A stretch of DNA of 64,000 nucleotides from Bacteroidia bacterium (GTDB lineage: Bacteria; Bacteroidota; Bacteroidia; SpSt-205): assembly GCA_025059535.1 (NCBI GenBank), contig JANXCX010000024.1, positions 87,425 through 151,424 on the forward strand, given 5' to 3'. Made by a program: the position numbers and the translations under genes. Of this stretch, positions 1,903 through 63,747 are shown piece by piece (position 1 is the stretch's first letter; each line of letters starts with the position of its first letter). The notes under the pieces are model-generated. The model made no database searches and was not told the DNA's origin. It saw nothing but the letters and a program-made list of their open reading frames with translations.

Positions 1903-1910
1903 CAAAAGTA
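1903..1910 (-). promoter_or_regulatory. -7 box TACTTTTG of the beta-barrel operon
   Basis: Perfect TAnnTTTG on the minus strand, 4 bases before the ATG at 1898. Back-to-back with the plus-strand box at 1930. Confidence 0.7.
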
Positions 1911-1929
1911 CAAAAGCGCAGCTTTTCCA

Positions 1930-1937
1930 TAGTTTTG
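1930..1937 (+). promoter_or_regulatory. -7 box TAGTTTTG of the SH3 lipoprotein-der operon
   Basis: Perfect TAnnTTTG, 4 bases (caga) before the GTG at 1942. This supports that start and predicts a leaderless or nearly leaderless mRNA. Confidence 0.7.
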
Positions 1938-9138: not shown

Positions 9139-9146
9139 CAAAGATA
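9139..9146 (-). promoter_or_regulatory. -7 box TATCTTTG of the cmk-ispH-porQ-dprA operon
   Basis: Perfect TAnnTTTG on the minus strand, 8 bases before the cmk GTG at 9130. Confidence 0.65.
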
Positions 9147-9172
9147 CAAAACTCACCAGTAGGGAATAGGAG

Positions 9173-9180
9173 TAGCTTTG
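9173..9180 (+). promoter_or_regulatory. -7 box TAGCTTTG of the epimerase gene
   Basis: Perfect TAnnTTTG, 4 bases (cgcc) before the ATG at 9185. Divergent from the cmk box within a 54-bp gap. Confidence 0.7.
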
Positions 9181-37295: not shown

Positions 37296-37303
37296 CAAAA
37301 GTA
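37296..37303 (-). promoter_or_regulatory. -7 box TACTTTTG of the UXS-rfbCA operon
   Basis: Perfect TAnnTTTG on the minus strand, 5 bases before the ATG at 37290. Confidence 0.7.
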
Positions 37304-37312
37304 GTAAAGGCC

Positions 37313-37320
37313 TACCTTTG
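37313..37320 (+). promoter_or_regulatory. -7 box TACCTTTG of rpmH-rnpA-yidD
   Basis: Perfect TAnnTTTG, 4 bases (cagc) before the rpmH ATG. A TTG at 37290-37292, 20 bases upstream, fits the -33 element and overlaps the start codon of the divergent UXS gene. Confidence 0.75.
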
Positions 37321-55961: not shown

Positions 55962-56787
55962 AAACTGGCGAGCCAAGGTACATGGCTCGGTCGGCTTTGT
56001 CCCGACAATGGGCGCCCTTCATGAAGGCCATCTATCGCTGGTACGCCAAAGCTTAGCCGATAACCCCTGGACCATCGTGAGCATTTTCGTCAATCCCCGC
56101 CAATTCGGTCCTCGTGAAGATTACCTCCGCTACCCGCGAACCTTAGAAACCGATATACGCCTACTTCAAAATCTGGGGGTTTCAGCTGTCTTTGTGCCTT
56201 CTGAGGAGGAGATGTATGGGAGCGATGAGGAGGTTTATATTAGCCTGACGCGCCTGAGCCAATTGTGGTGCGGGAGCTACCGGCAGGGGCACTTTGATGG
56301 AGTAGCCCTGGTACTGGTCAAGCTCTTCAATCTCATCAACCCTTCGCGCGCCTACTTCGGTGAGAAGGACTTTCAGCAAGTCCGCCTAGTGGAGAAAATG
56401 GTAAGTGAGCTTTTCTTTCCCTTACAGGTGGTGCGAGTGCCTACGGTGCGCGAGCCAGATGGGCTTGCGCTAAGCTCTCGCAATACTTACCTCTCGCCGC
56501 GTGGGCGTGCCCAGGCCGTAGCGCTTTACAAGAGCCTTCAGTACATTCAGGCGTTGATACCAACTACCCTACGGACAGATGAGCTTATAGAGGCGGGGCG
56601 CTTGTATTTGGAGGAGCACTTTCCCGAGGTGAGGCTGGAGTATTTAGCTATTGTGGATGAGGATTCCTTAGAGCCTCTTGAGCATCTATGGCAGTCGGCG
56701 CGGCCGCGTGCCCTTATTGCGGCGTATGTAGAGGAGGTGCGCCTTATTGATAATCTGCCGCTGATAGTGCCGTCGGAGCCGTCCTAA
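55930..56787 (+). CDS. panC: Pantothenate synthetase PanC
   Basis: 285 residues. Joins pantoate and beta-alanine with ATP. Motifs: VGFVPTMGALHEGHLSLVRQ (HIGH-type), VSIFVNPRQFGP, RAYFGEKDFQQVRLVEKMV, TVREPDGLALSSRNTYL (KMSKS-type region). Length is normal. The first 32 bases overlap the symporter gene and the last 44 overlap tsaE on the other strand. Confidence 0.97.
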   Translation: MEILQTRQSVRNWRAKVHGSVGFVPTMGALHEGHLSLVRQSLADNPWTIVSIFVNPRQFGPREDYLRYPRTLETDIRLLQNLGVSAVFVPSEEEMYGSDEEVYISLTRLSQLWCGSYRQGHFDGVALVLVKLFNLINPSRAYFGEKDFQQVRLVEKMVSELFFPLQVVRVPTVREPDGLALSSRNTYLSPRGRAQAVALYKSLQYIQALIPTTLRTDELIEAGRLYLEEHFPEVRLEYLAIVDEDSLEPLEHLWQSARPRALIAAYVEEVRLIDNLPLIVPSEPS

Positions 56788-57178
56788 GGTAAGCGGTAAG
56801 GCGACGCCGATCCCCCTCCAGCGGTTCTAGTTGTACCTCCACCCAGGGGGGTGGTGGTGGGCCAGGGAGTTTATCAGCCCACTCCACAAAAACGAGCGGA
56901 GCCTCCTCCAAGGCCGCATACACCTCTGCCCACCGAGAAGGAATAGCCCAGTCCAATTTATACAGGTCTATATGCACCGCGCCAGGTAGGTAGTGGATGT
57001 AGGTAAAGGTTGGGCTGGTGACGTCGGGCCCCACCCAGGCGCGCACGAGGGCGGTCTTTCCTGCGCCGATAGGCCCAATCAGAAGCCATCGCCGAACTTG
57101 GGGCGCCCAAGCCTGTAGCTCCCTCACCACCTGCGGCAGCTCCGCCTCAGAAAACTCCCGCCGATATACCTCCTTCAC
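56744..57178 (-). CDS. tsaE: tRNA threonylcarbamoyladenosine biosynthesis ATPase TsaE
   Basis: 144 residues. P-loop LLIGPIGAGKTALVRAW, then SPTFTYIHYLPGAVHIDLYKL and PLVFVEWADKLPG, all in TsaE order. It supports t6A modification at position 37 of ANN-decoding tRNAs, such as the tRNA-Lys in this window. Start overlaps the porX stop (ATGA), so the two are co-translated. Confidence 0.94.
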   Translation of the reverse strand: MKEVYRREFSEAELPQVVRELQAWAPQVRRWLLIGPIGAGKTALVRAWVGPDVTSPTFTYIHYLPGAVHIDLYKLDWAIPSRWAEVYAALEEAPLVFVEWADKLPGPPPPPWVEVQLEPLEGDRRRLTAYLRTAPTALSAADYQ

Positions 57179-58737
57179 TTCTTCACCTCCAGGCGTAGGA
57201 AGGGCACTATTATTTCCTCTAAGCTCACGCCCCCGTGCTGGTAGGAGTCCCGATAGAGGCGCACGTAGTCGTTGTAGTTCGTAGGATAGACCAAGAAGTA
57301 ATCCTCGCAGGCAAAAAGGTAGGTAGCGCTGGCGGTAGCGCGAGGCAGGCGGGCCTCTTCGGGCTTTCGGATATGGAAAAGCCCGCGTGCATCGCGGTCG
57401 TAGTTGAGGTTACGGCCCTGTTTGTAGCGCAGATTCGTGGTGGTCTCCCGATCCCCCAGCACGCGCACAGGCCGTCGCACTTGCACAAAGCCGTGATCCG
57501 TAGTGAGGAACACCCGCCGAACATACTGCGGCAGAAGGCGCATAACCTGAAAGAAGGAGGAATTCTCCAGCCAGGCGCGCGTAGTGGCTCTAAGCGCTAT
57601 GTCGTTGGAAGCGAGTTCTTTGAGGATGTTCATCTGCACGCGCGTGTGCGCCATAAGGTCTAAAAAGTTGAAAATCAAAAGAAGGATTTCATGTTGGCGT
57701 AGAAGCTGAGGTAGCTGCTGCACGAGGGCCTTGCCTTCTTCCAAGCGCAGGACTTTGACATACCCTATGCGCGCAGGCATCTTGTGGCGATGGAGAAGGT
57801 CCCCGAAAAATTCTTCTTCAAATAGGTTTTTGCCGCCTTCCTCATCATCGTCGGCCCAATAGCGGGGAAAACGCTGGGCTAGCTCTAAGGGAAAAAGACC
57901 GCCAAAAAGGCTATTGCGCGCATACTGCGTGGCCGTAGGGAGGATAGAGAAAAAGAGCTGTTCCTCGGCGGTGTGATAGTAAGGGGCGATGAGGGCTTCC
58001 AATACTTTCCACTGGTCATAACGCATGCCATCTATGAGCAAAAGAACTACGGGCTCCTTAGAGCGCTCGGCTAAATGCGGTAAAAAATACTTTGTAAGCA
58101 CATCGGGCGACAGGGTAGGACGCTGGCTGCTGTGGACCCATTCCAGGTAGTTTTCTGTGTAAAATCGGCTAAAAAGTAGGTTAGCTTCGGCACGCTGGCC
58201 GTCCAGAATGCTGCGCAGCTCGGCTTCCCCGCTTTTCTCTAAGGCTAAATCCCAATATACAAGGTCCCGGTAGATCTGAAGCCATTCTTCGGCGGTGGGA
58301 TTTAGGGCGATTTGGGTGGCTAGGCGGCGGAATTCGCGCTGGTAGTCTTGGCTAGTCTGCTGCTGCTGCAGAAGCGGCCCACTGAGAAGGCGCTTGCAGG
58401 TAGAGAGGAGCTGCTGGGGTTTGACGGGCTTAATAAGGAAGTCGGCAATTTCCACGCCTACGGCTGCCTCCATAAGCGGCTCACTTTCATCCTTCGTTAC
58501 CATCACGATAGGCAAATGGGGAAGAAGGCGCTTTACCTGCCGGGCCAGCTCTATGCCCTCCATGCCCGGCATATGCTCATCTACAATAAGTAGGTCTATA
58601 GGCTGTTGATGGAGCGTCGCCAAAGCCTCCGTTGGATAGCGTAGCGGAATAACTTCAAAGCCTTTTTCCCGCAAATGCAGAACTTGAGGCTCCAGATGGT
58701 CTATTTCGTCATCTACCCAAAGGATTCGGCTACGCAT
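57175..58737 (-). CDS. porX: Type IX secretion response regulator PorX (receiver + PglZ domain)
   Basis: 520 residues. Receiver domain at 1-120: ILWVDDEIDHLE with acidic residues at 9-11, phospho-acceptor Asp53 in LLIVDEHMPGMEG, the conserved lysine in FLIKPVKP. A helical linker is followed from about residue 205 by a PglZ/alkaline-phosphatase-fold domain with metal-site motifs LLIDGMRYDQW and FLTTDHGF. In characterised species PorX, with PorY, links signalling to T9SS gene expression and to the motor proteins. Its start is 4 bases from a TATCTTTG box, and it is divergent from a phosphatase gene by only 28 bp. Confidence 0.94.
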   Translation of the reverse strand: MRSRILWVDDEIDHLEPQVLHLREKGFEVIPLRYPTEALATLHQQPIDLLIVDEHMPGMEGIELARQVKRLLPHLPIVMVTKDESEPLMEAAVGVEIADFLIKPVKPQQLLSTCKRLLSGPLLQQQQTSQDYQREFRRLATQIALNPTAEEWLQIYRDLVYWDLALEKSGEAELRSILDGQRAEANLLFSRFYTENYLEWVHSSQRPTLSPDVLTKYFLPHLAERSKEPVVLLLIDGMRYDQWKVLEALIAPYYHTAEEQLFFSILPTATQYARNSLFGGLFPLELAQRFPRYWADDDEEGGKNLFEEEFFGDLLHRHKMPARIGYVKVLRLEEGKALVQQLPQLLRQHEILLLIFNFLDLMAHTRVQMNILKELASNDIALRATTRAWLENSSFFQVMRLLPQYVRRVFLTTDHGFVQVRRPVRVLGDRETTTNLRYKQGRNLNYDRDARGLFHIRKPEEARLPRATASATYLFACEDYFLVYPTNYNDYVRLYRDSYQHGGVSLEEIIVPFLRLEVKK

Positions 58738-58741
58738 GTTT

Positions 58742-58749
58742 CAAAGATA
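58742..58749 (-). promoter_or_regulatory. -7 box TATCTTTG of porX-tsaE
   Basis: Perfect TAnnTTTG on the minus strand, 4 bases before the porX ATG. Only 2 bases separate it from the opposing plus-strand box. Confidence 0.75.
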
Positions 58750-58751
58750 AG

Positions 58752-58759
58752 TATATTTG
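58752..58759 (+). promoter_or_regulatory. -7 box TATATTTG of the SpoIIE phosphatase-MFS operon
   Basis: Perfect TAnnTTTG, 6 bases (ggaagt) before the ATG at 58766. The track start at 58757 (TTG) lies inside this box. Confidence 0.75.
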
Positions 58760-58765
58760 GGAAGT

Positions 58766-60523
58766 ATGGAGCCGGCCTTGGCCATAGTTTGGCTACCTGA
58801 TACCCCTACTTGGACTGCTCTTCGGGAGGTGATTAGGGAAGGGCTACCTAATATGGTCGTGCATTTTTTTGCGACTCCCGAGGAGGCCCAGCGCTACACC
58901 GAGCGCAGTCTTTTGGAAGGGAAGTCTATTTTTCTTTTTATTGCCCCCTTACCGAATGGTGAGGAGTTTTTAGTTGAATCCCTGAAGCGCTGGCCTCTAG
59001 CCTATGCGTTGGGCTTGACTCATGAAAGCGACTTTACCGTAGAGGTTGGCACTTACCTTGTAGCCTATCTGAATGGCCAACCCTCGGCGCTGCGGCCTTA
59101 CCTTCACCAGCTAGTGCGCCGCTATGAGGAGCGCCGGCAAAGTGAGCAACAGAAAGCCCTCTTGGCCGAAATCCACCGCGTCTCCCTCTCTCTTACGGGC
59201 GAGGTGCGTTTGGAATGGCTTATCTTCAAACTTTTGCGCTTGGCTTTGGAAAATAGCGGCGCCCCGCAGGCTTTCCTGATAGTACCCGAAGACGAGTCCA
59301 GCGAAGCCCTACTAGTAGCTGGCTACGCTGAAGCAGGGGATTATGAACCGCGCCCCTATCCGCCACGTCCTTTGGCCCAAGAGATGCGGCTCTTCCTCCC
59401 AGCTATCTACCATACCGTGCGCACGCGCGAAAATCTCTTTATCCTTCCCGGTAAGGAGCATCCCCTTTGGCACCGCCACCCAGAATGGGAACGGTTTGGC
59501 CTTGAAGCCCTACTCTGCCTCCCCCTTATCTACCAAGGACGGCTCATGGGCCTCCTCTACCTACCCAACCCTAACACCGAATTCTTTACTACCCCCGAAA
59601 AGCTGGAATTCCTGAAGCTTTTTACTGCCCCTGGGGCATTGGCCCTGCAGAATGCCCAGCTCTATGCCGAGATGGAGGCCCGCGTGCGCGAGCGCACTCA
59701 AGAGGTTTTACGCCAGAAGGAAGAGATAGAACGCCAAAGTGCCCTTCTGCGGCAGCAAAACGAGGACATCCTGGCTAGCCTGCGCTACGCCCAGCGCGTC
59801 CAGCGCGCCATTTTTCCCCCTTGGAGCGAGCTGCAAAAAACCCTCCCCGAAAGCTTTCTTTTTTACCATCCGCGTGAAATTGTAGGTGGGGACTTTTACT
59901 GGTTTGCCCAGCGGCTCAGTAAAATCGTCATAGCAGTAGGGGATTGCACGGGCCATGGGATTCCAGGGGCCTTTATGACGATCATCGCAAATACCCTACT
60001 CAAGCAAATAGTGGAGCTGGAGGGGGTTTTCAAGCCGTCGGAAATTCTGTACCTCCTCAATCTGCGTATGCGTGCGGCCCTCCAGCATGAGGATGCTCAA
60101 TACCAGCGCTTTCGGGAGGGTATGGAGATCGCCCTAATTCAATTAGACCCTAAACGGCATAAGCTCCTGTATGCGGGCGCAGGGCGGCCTCTTTTCCTCG
60201 TACGGCAAGGCAAAGGTCAAGAAATCCTCCCCGATCGGCTTACGATTGGCACTTCCCCAGAAGGGGAAGCCCCTGAGTTTACGCTGCATGCCCTTGACCT
60301 CCAGCCGGGAGATACCCTCTTCCTCTTTTCCGATGGGTTTGCCGACCAGCTCAATCCCGAAGGCAAGCGTTACCAACTGCGCCGGCTTTACGAGCTTTTT
60401 GAGGTGATAGCCGAGCAGTCAGCGGCCCGACAGCAGGTTCTTTTAGAGGCTGAGCTGGAACGCTGGCGCCAAAACGCGCGGCAAACCGACGACATCCTTA
60501 TTATTGGCCTGCGCATTCCTTAG
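58766..60523 (+). CDS. GAF-domain SpoIIE-type serine/threonine phosphatase
   Basis: About 585 residues. An N-terminal region of about 125 residues with receiver-like spacing but no evident phosphorylation site; a GAF sensor domain at about 135-310 (LEWLIFKLLRLALENSGA, ALLCLPLIYQGRLMGLLYL); a coiled coil at about 310-350; then a PP2C/SpoIIE phosphatase domain with YHPREIVGGDFYW, AVGDCTGHGIPGAFMT, LFLFSDGFADQ and RQTDDILIIGL providing the metal-binding aspartates. Such proteins control partner-switching regulators by dephosphorylating an anti-anti-sigma-like protein. No such target is in the window. An MFS gene follows after 3 bases. Confidence 0.93.
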   Translation: MEPALAIVWLPDTPTWTALREVIREGLPNMVVHFFATPEEAQRYTERSLLEGKSIFLFIAPLPNGEEFLVESLKRWPLAYALGLTHESDFTVEVGTYLVAYLNGQPSALRPYLHQLVRRYEERRQSEQQKALLAEIHRVSLSLTGEVRLEWLIFKLLRLALENSGAPQAFLIVPEDESSEALLVAGYAEAGDYEPRPYPPRPLAQEMRLFLPAIYHTVRTRENLFILPGKEHPLWHRHPEWERFGLEALLCLPLIYQGRLMGLLYLPNPNTEFFTTPEKLEFLKLFTAPGALALQNAQLYAEMEARVRERTQEVLRQKEEIERQSALLRQQNEDILASLRYAQRVQRAIFPPWSELQKTLPESFLFYHPREIVGGDFYWFAQRLSKIVIAVGDCTGHGIPGAFMTIIANTLLKQIVELEGVFKPSEILYLLNLRMRAALQHEDAQYQRFREGMEIALIQLDPKRHKLLYAGAGRPLFLVRQGKGQEILPDRLTIGTSPEGEAPEFTLHALDLQPGDTLFLFSDGFADQLNPEGKRYQLRRLYELFEVIAEQSAARQQVLLEAELERWRQNARQTDDILIIGLRIP

Positions 60524-60526
60524 CCA

Positions 60527-61735
60527 ATGAATTGGCGCGCTTGGCTAGCCGTACTAGTGGCGACCCTGGGCTATTTCGTGGATATCTATGACCTTATCCT
60601 TTTTTCTGTCGTACGGGAAGCCAGTCTGACCGACCTGGGCTTTAGCCCAGCCGAACGGCTGCGGTATGGCGTTCTCCTTATAGACCTTCAGATGGTTGGC
60701 ATGCTTTTAGGGGGGCTTCTGTGGGGCATTTTAGGGGACAAACGCGGCCGGCTCTCCGTACTTTTCGGCTCCATTCTCACCTACTCTTTAGCCACGCTTT
60801 TCAATGGCTTTGCAAAAGGTATCTGGGACTATAGCGTTTGGCGATTTATAGCGGGGATAGGACTAGCGGGCGAGCTAGGGGTGGGCGTGACGCTGGTAGC
60901 CGAGCTTATGCCGGCTGCGCTGCGCGGCTGGGGCACTACGCTTATCGCTACAATCGGAATTTTCGGCGCCGTAGTGGCTAGCCTAGTAGGAGATAGGTTT
61001 CATTGGCGCACCGCTTACTATATAGGCGGCAGCCTAGGCTTTGGGCTCCTTTTTCTGCGCCTAGGCGTAGGCGAATCGGAGCTTTTTACCCGCTTCCGCC
61101 AGCAGGCGCACGTGCCCGCTGGCGACTTCTTCCAAATTTTCCGCCGAACCGAACGCCTATCCCGTTATCTTTTTATCATTCTCACAGGCGTCCCGATCTG
61201 GTACGTGGTGGGGATTTTAGTAACTTTTTCGCCTGACCTCTTTCGCGAGATAGGGCTGACGGTTCGCGCAAGCCAAGCCATACTTTACACCTATATTGGT
61301 CTCTCCATTGGCGATCTCTTGGCTGGGATCCTTAGCCAAGTGCTGCACAGCCGCAAGCAGCCAATCCTCATCTGGCTTAGCTTCTCGACGGTGTTGGCCA
61401 TACTTTACAACCAGCTGCCTTTCACTGCGCCGACCCGGGTTTACTGGTTTTGCCTCTGGCTAGGGTTATTTTCGGGATATTGGGCGGTGCTCATAACAAG
61501 TGCGGCTGAGCAATTTGGCACCAACCTGCGCGCTACCGTCACAACCAGCGTACCTAACTGGATACGCGGCTCCCTCGTGCTATCCACCCTCCTATGGCAG
61601 GCCATCCAGAGCTTCACTTCCCTAAGAACAAGCGCCCTCCTGAGCGGGATCATAATATATGGGATAGCCTTATTTTCGGCTACGCGCCTTCGGGAGACCT
61701 ATGGGAAGTCTTTAGATTTTCTGGAGCGGGATTAG
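60527..61735 (+). CDS. Major facilitator superfamily transporter
   Basis: 402 residues, 12 predicted membrane helices. The motif A loop between helices 2 and 3 is GILGDKRGRLSVLFGS, and RFIAGIGLAGELGVGVTLVAEL is motif B-like, as in the sugar/aromatic acid:proton symporter group. GYFVDIYDLILFSV in helix 1 resembles the 'D.yD' motif of that group. Substrate unknown. Its last 56 bases overlap waaA on the other strand, the longest tail overlap in the window. Confidence 0.88.
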   Translation: MNWRAWLAVLVATLGYFVDIYDLILFSVVREASLTDLGFSPAERLRYGVLLIDLQMVGMLLGGLLWGILGDKRGRLSVLFGSILTYSLATLFNGFAKGIWDYSVWRFIAGIGLAGELGVGVTLVAELMPAALRGWGTTLIATIGIFGAVVASLVGDRFHWRTAYYIGGSLGFGLLFLRLGVGESELFTRFRQQAHVPAGDFFQIFRRTERLSRYLFIILTGVPIWYVVGILVTFSPDLFREIGLTVRASQAILYTYIGLSIGDLLAGILSQVLHSRKQPILIWLSFSTVLAILYNQLPFTAPTRVYWFCLWLGLFSGYWAVLITSAAEQFGTNLRATVTTSVPNWIRGSLVLSTLLWQAIQSFTSLRTSALLSGIIIYGIALFSATRLRETYGKSLDFLERD

Positions 61736-62975: not shown

Positions 62976-63724
62976 TCTACCGGCGCTTTTTCATACAGCA
63001 GAAGGCTCCACCCAAAACGGAACCCATACCAGAAATCCCGCCGCAGACGCTCTTCCACGCTGCGCTGATCATACACGTAGTAGCGTAGGCTCCGGGTGAA
63101 AAACTGCCCTGCCTCAAAGGCTAAAAAAAAGTTTATGAGCCCGCGGTTGGCAAAAAACCGGTAGCCGAGGCTCTCCGTAAGCCCCCAGCCGGCGCTTAGG
63201 CGGTCTAGGCCCTTGAGGTATTCTCCTTCCAGCAGGGGGAGTCTATCGCTGCGCGCCTTATCTATAAGAATGCGATGGCGTAGATAGCCTAAGCCAAGTT
63301 CTACAAAAGGCCCGCAATTAGGGTTTTGGCCAGGCCAGCGCAGAAACTGAGCGATATACCCTATGCGGAAGCTCCCCTGCCAGCCCCGCTGACGCAGATT
63401 GGGGCTAAATACCCGCCCATTCTCATCTACAAAAGCTAAACTACCCGTCTGCCAAAAGCTCTGTAGGTGCAAGCCCGCCAGAAAATTCGGCTCTCGGACC
63501 TGGTCCCCAATAAGGCCGCCGCCCTGCAGGAGAAAGTAAAGATTAGCCCGGGTCTTGTACCCTATTTCGCCGCCAACTACGGCCGTATAGCCAAAACGAC
63601 GCGCCAAATCAAGCTGAGGAAAATACCCCCCATAGCCGACAGAGAGAAGGCCAAAGGCAATCACGGAGTCGCGTATGCTCTGCTGCCCCCACACGAGGGC
63701 CAAACCTAAGCCTACTCGCCACAC
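62972..63724 (-). CDS. Putative outer-membrane beta-barrel protein
   Basis: About 250 residues. From the GTG at 63724: signal peptide (VWRVGLGLALVWGQ), then amphipathic strands typical of Bacteroidota outer-membrane barrels (AFGLLSVGYGGYFP, ANLYFLLQGGGLIG, GPFVELGLGYLRHR, FWYGFRFGWSLLLY). Function unknown. The track start (63742) is the TTG of the TACCTTTG box; the GTG 15 bases downstream gives a proper signal peptide. Co-transcribed with waaA. Confidence 0.65.
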   Translation of the reverse strand: MWRVGLGLALVWGQQSIRDSVIAFGLLSVGYGGYFPQLDLARRFGYTAVVGGEIGYKTRANLYFLLQGGGLIGDQVREPNFLAGLHLQSFWQTGSLAFVDENGRVFSPNLRQRGWQGSFRIGYIAQFLRWPGQNPNCGPFVELGLGYLRHRILIDKARSDRLPLLEGEYLKGLDRLSAGWGLTESLGYRFFANRGLINFFLAFEAGQFFTRSLRYYVYDQRSVEERLRRDFWYGFRFGWSLLLYEKAPVE

Positions 63725-63729
63725 CAGCG

Positions 63730-63737
63730 TACTTTTG
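63730..63737 (+). promoter_or_regulatory. -7 box TACTTTTG of the UDP-glucose dehydrogenase gene
   Basis: Perfect TAnnTTTG, 13 bases before the ATG at 63751; left half of an 18-bp near-palindrome shared with the minus-strand box. Confidence 0.65.
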
Positions 63738-63739
63738 CG

Positions 63740-63747
63740 CAAAGGTA
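63740..63747 (-). promoter_or_regulatory. -7 box TACCTTTG of the beta-barrel-waaA operon
   Basis: Perfect TAnnTTTG on the minus strand, 15 bases before the GTG at 63724; it points across the plus-strand box rather than away from it. Confidence 0.65.

Follow-up and report, generated by a model that had tools for sequence, protein, structure and literature searches.

The porX-phosphatase locus

We analysed a 64,000-nt stretch of Bacteroidia DNA (the window, part of source genome G000) and focused on the 28-bp intergenic gap at 58738-58765, which was read directly from the sequence and separates porX on the minus strand from a SpoIIE-type phosphatase gene on the plus strand. porX (57175-58737, minus strand) encodes a T9SS response regulator of 520 aa with a receiver and a PglZ domain. 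The protein matched the NF052313 equivalog at 3.4e-190 and 633 bits (cut-off 300), carried the Pfam domains Response_reg and PglZ, and aligned over its full length with the response regulators 7pv7/8ted, its best solved structures (E 2e-141); by domains and score, it thus belongs to PorX. PorX proteins regulate the T9SS together with PorY and SigP. With 30 matches to the T9SS C-terminal sorting domain in the source genome, the system is probably in use there. tsaE (56744-57178, minus strand; PF02367, 1e-14) has 4 nt in common with the 3' end of porX, and the two genes probably lie on one transcript. An MFS transporter gene (60527-61735, plus strand; PF07690, 2.3e-21) follows the phosphatase gene.

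The phosphatase gene (58766-60523, plus strand) encodes 585 aa. The product matched PF07228 at 1.6e-28 and 100.4 bits (cut-off 25) and GAF_2 at 1.2e-9, and the acidic residues of the GGDFYW, GDCTGHG, SDGF and TDD motifs were invariant in 10 orthologues. By PF07228 and these acidic metal-binding motifs, it is a predicted SpoIIE (PP2C-type) phosphatase. Structure prediction from ten orthologues gave a model with, from the N to the C terminus, a beta-alpha CheY-type domain, a GAF domain, a long helix and the PP2C domain; because the mean pLDDT was 79 and the pTM 0.44, the packing of these domains is uncertain. The predicted CheY-like domain, encoded at 58766-59155, has a receiver fold that lacks the phospho-acceptor aspartate where strand 3 ends, and this receiver-like N-terminus is possibly a docking domain. 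The best fold matches of the model were the SiaA PP2C domain and Pseudomonas RssB. The catalytic domain resembled that of Pseudomonas SiaA (6k4e; profile E 1.5e-40, fold E 3.1e-18), but the protein reached 171.8 bits against the 700-bit cut-off of the NF038263 equivalog, over residues 284-584 only, and falls outside that group. RssB likewise joins a receiver to a PP2C domain; unlike SiaA and RssB, the present phosphatase combines a GAF domain with a receiver-like domain devoid of the acceptor residue.

Bacteroidota primary-sigma promoters consist of a -7 box, TAnnTTTG, and a weak -33 TTTG. The gap holds two perfect -7 boxes in divergent orientation, 2 bp apart (CAAAGATA-AG-TATATTTG). The porX box (TATCTTTG, 58742-58749, minus strand) ends 4 nt before the porX ATG (58737-58735, minus strand), and the phosphatase box (TATATTTG, 58752-58759, plus strand) ends 6 nt before the phosphatase ATG, which opens at 58766 on the plus strand. 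The sequence therefore agrees with the original prediction of two back-to-back boxes at these distances from the start codons. A box is expected by chance on one strand of a given 28-bp stretch with p ~0.003, and both gap boxes also match TAHHTTTG, the refined -7 consensus (PMC6847099). The longest phosphatase ORF opens at an in-frame TTG at 58757, inside the -7 box, and relatives align at or near the ATG. The -33 positions of each promoter coincide with the first codons of the opposite gene, as had been predicted, but no -33 motif was detectable upstream of start-proximal boxes in 51 and 83 aligned promoters from two genomes. A search for structured RNA found none near the gap and, within the window, only a tRNA elsewhere.

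Start-proximal promoter boxes in the source family

In Flavobacterium, the -7 box spans -12 to -5, counted from the first transcribed base (PMC6847099, PMC9723704), so that 4 nt separate it from the start site. At a box-to-ATG distance of 4 nt, porX transcription should begin on the A of the ATG (58737, minus strand), giving a leaderless mRNA; with a distance of 6 nt, phosphatase transcription should begin at 58764 on the plus strand, giving a leader of ~2 nt. The gap boxes resemble known Bacteroidota primary-sigma promoters in matching the consensus perfectly and, for porX, in the 4-nt distance that fits the -12 to -5 placement; the difference is that most mapped genes have longer leaders, whereas in the source family the box often stands right next to the start codon. 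The leader exceeds 10 nt in 87% of cases in F. johnsoniae (PMC6847099) and has a median of 24 nt in F. psychrophilum, with 5.5% leaderless (PMC9723704), and leaders below 10 nt amount to 3.7% in B. thetaiotaomicron (PMC7366714). Leaderless mRNAs or very short leaders thus make up about 3.7-5.5% of mRNAs in two mapped Bacteroidota (PMC9723704, PMC7366714). Among 953 bacterial genomes surveyed, leaderless signals were found in 1 of 37 Bacteroidetes/Chlorobi genomes, at 2.4% (PMC3160421). Many leaderless genes of Actinobacteria and Deinococcus-Thermus similarly carry a -10-type box ~10-12 bp before the start codon (PMC3160421), but they use another sigma box and belong to other phyla than the source family.

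Gene-based statistics were obtained from one 299-kb contig of the source genome, which holds the window, and from samples of the congener G008. A perfect box lay within 40 nt of the start in 72 of 223 genes on the contig and 85 of 243 in G008, compared with 6 and 5 genes, respectively, for the reversed motif. The box-to-start spacing showed a sharp mode at 4 nt in both; start codons were taken from a simple ORF script, and the mode was also visible without gene calling. This mode equals the distance between box and start site mapped in Flavobacterium (PMC6847099, PMC9723704), which supports start-proximal promoters. Among leading genes, a perfect box stood 3-6 nt before the start in 36/94 (38%) on the contig and 74/163 (45%) in G008, and in 59% and 61% when one mismatch was allowed. 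The corresponding perfect-box counts were 13/142 (9%) and 28/232 (12%) for operon-internal genes, and 6/94 (6%) and 7/163 (4%) for leading genes at a control offset.

We defined a leaderless index as the whole-genome count of TAnnTTTG-N4-ATG divided by that of TAnnTTTG-N18-ATG. All 12 source-family genomes (11 from the source genus, 1 from a sister genus) had an index of 4.9-9.5. G001, a genome of the same order, scored 1.5, and among 154 other Bacteroidia from 105 genera the index did not exceed 3.5 and was mostly near 1. These results indicate that the start-proximal layout is a common rule of the source family and nothing special to porX, and the sequence statistics point to a predominantly leaderless family within the Bacteroidota.

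Intermediate index values were seen in G154 of family f64 (3.5, the maximum outside the source family) and in G050, G089 and G121 of family f40 (~2.1); families f64 and f40 also hold some of the nearest phosphatase relatives. Those relatives that bear names (SKYB, SKYG, SKW, KatS3mg025/026) are Bacteroidia assembled from metagenomes, and from these names we take a hot-spring origin to be probable.

Because start-proximal boxes are common in the source family, divergent neighbours often have nearly touching promoters. The 299-kb contig contained 8 back-to-back box pairs within 30 bp, whereas 10 Markov shuffles gave 0.1 on average. The porX gap was the tightest of the 8, and G008 has a pair 1 bp apart that is tighter still. 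Divergent gene pairs with two start-proximal boxes numbered 8 of 41 on the contig and 12 of 33 in the first G008 sample; a special excess of such double-box pairs was considered and rejected, as the counts fit roughly independent boxes. Four further back-to-back or close divergent box pairs lie at other genes in the window (1903-1937, 9139-9180, 37296-37320 and 63701-63747). At L040:801-816 (C25:260801-260816), divergent ORFs are separated by a 15-bp gap with facing boxes 1 bp apart, each overlapping the start codon of the other ORF.

Conservation of the porX-phosphatase pairing

The head-to-head arrangement of porX and the phosphatase gene was found in all 11 readable family genomes, namely the 10 source-genus genomes in which porX was found and the sister genus. 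The search of relatives proposed with the original prediction thus bore out the pairing. The gap measured 28-80 bp among orthologues, and the two boxes, where both were perfect, were 2, 9, 9, 12, 21, 21, 22 and 51 bp apart. Seven of 10 relatives, six from the source genus and the one from the sister genus, kept the porX box 3-4 nt from the ATG; in three congeners (L016, L019 and L026) it was degenerate, and other promoters may serve there. All 10 had a phosphatase box, 4-9 nt ahead of the start, with two of the starts re-read by eye.

tsaE followed porX in only some relatives, and no tblastn match to the MFS transporter was found in the relatives' loci. Between G000 and G008, 4 of 10 evaluable divergent pairs survived, together with 1 of 10 convergent and 19 of 40 co-directional pairs. 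Gene order around the porX pair is thus fluid, and in this small sample the pair is retained more consistently than divergent pairs are on average. One divergent pair with a short gap, 11121/11151 in C25, was broken.

Outside the family, no SpoIIE-domain homologue was found in the porX flanks of 28 loci (25 from the class, L024, L025 and the same-order L013), with 1.5 kb searched, or 4 kb for L024 and L025. Among the flanks searched, the pairing appears confined to the source family. In other families, the nearest relatives of the phosphatase (in G154, G058 and G050) did not share a contig with porX. The divergent neighbour of porX was an HD-domain phosphohydrolase, recognised by shared sequence and confirmed by Pfam in one case, in 14 of the 25 class loci (L060, L064, L065, L067, L068, L070-L074, L076, L078, L081 and L082). 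Five source-genus genomes encode a homologue of this phosphohydrolase, either on a different contig from porX or at a separate site, and in G000 it lies at C6:140055-141185.

A probable minimal divergent promoter pair and its alternatives

We consider it most probable, at roughly 0.78, that two primary-sigma (sigma-A type) promoters form a minimal divergent pair in the gap, each providing basal transcription from its own box in the leaderless layout common to the family. The porX box would set transcription on the start codon and the phosphatase box 2 nt before it, as start-proximal promoters with leaderless mRNAs would do throughout the family. Basal expression of each gene would most likely come from its own box. 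The gap has no room for two polymerases at a time, which at modest firing rates would have little effect, and interference would arise only when one side is strongly activated. The sequence, the genome- and family-wide statistics and the conserved pairing are observations; the start sites, the absence of leaders, the basal expression and the weak interference are inferred. A start-proximal box could also be one of several promoters of its gene. The degenerate porX box in three relatives, and start sites that are predicted from sequence, leave some room for the boxes being chance matches with the real promoters elsewhere; given the genome-wide positional mode at 4 nt, the enrichment of boxes over shuffles and the conservation of both boxes across the family, we regard this as very improbable.

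The original prediction had gone further and proposed mutually exclusive or tightly linked expression, with both genes in one signalling circuit. Its physical premise is sound: with boxes 2 bp apart and predicted starts 27 bp apart, polymerase footprints must overlap, and, given established footprints, simultaneous occupancy of both boxes would be impossible in every relative. A regulatory switch, in which back-to-back boxes were selected for mutual exclusion of porX and the phosphatase, would also suit a pairing that persists in all 11 readable family genomes as the flanks (MFS, tsaE) change. However, the orthologous boxes are anywhere from 2 to 51 bp apart, and similar box pairs occur at unrelated genes, including the 1-bp gap in G008. 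Bidirectional promoters of E. coli also initiate in opposite directions from sites separated by a few tens of bp, but they are pseudo-symmetrical sequences that engage polymerase in either orientation (PMC12825309), whereas the porX gap has two separate boxes with a spacing that varies among relatives and is thus not a shared promoter of that type. All five bidirectional promoters tested in E. coli showed no polymerase competition at basal activity, for which they were too weak; strong activation was needed before any interference was seen (PMC12825309). One would therefore not expect mutual exclusion by default, and a switch is improbable. The data lend no support to mutual exclusion as something selected for, and the 2-bp arrangement is the extreme of a layout that is common in these genomes.

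The conserved pairing could have arisen in other ways. The whole promoter region lies within 28-80 bp, and a break in the gap would harm one or both promoters, so that a shared tiny promoter region could by itself hold the genes together regardless of function. Divergent pairs were retained more often than convergent ones (4/10 versus 1/10 between G000 and G008), as such a by-product would have it, but the sample is ten pairs, co-directional pairs were retained as often (19/40), and the short-gap pair 11121/11151 was broken. We therefore hold this explanation as possible, though short of an even chance. A somewhat more tentative proposal is that the phosphatase acts in the PorX pathway without any promoter logic, adjacency serving co-inheritance or matched expression. 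This would fit the retention of the pairing in 11 of 11 genomes compared with 4 of 10 divergent pairs overall, the predicted CheY-like, GAF and intact PP2C domains of the phosphatase, and a T9SS that is probably in use. Against it, phosphatase orthologues in other families are not beside porX, the usual porX neighbour outside the family is the HD phosphohydrolase (14/25), whose homologue lies elsewhere in the source genus, and the source genome encodes 20 SpoIIE-domain and 3 STAS proteins, allowing many possible circuits. Since adjacency is conserved in a fluid gene order, a link to PorX is nevertheless suggested, and the phosphatase may plausibly belong to the PorX circuit. In the literature searched, no paper joining PorX and SpoIIE was found. 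The combined history, in which the source family moved to leaderless transcripts as its main mode and porX exchanged its HD neighbour for a PorX-pathway phosphatase with receiver-like, GAF and PP2C domains, is unlikely as a whole.

The predicted existence of a predominantly leaderless Bacteroidota family is more interesting than the porX pair itself. Bacteroidota make little use of Shine-Dalgarno sequences. If about 40-60% of leading genes do have a box abutting the start codon, the family would offer a contrast for translation initiation without Shine-Dalgarno sequences, and its start codons would be predictable from promoter boxes. Touching divergent promoters in compact genomes need not mean shared regulation. 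As a separate observation, a ~32-kb segment of the source genome (C8:18989-50932) contains five SpoIIE-domain genes, one STAS gene and one T9SS sorting-domain match.
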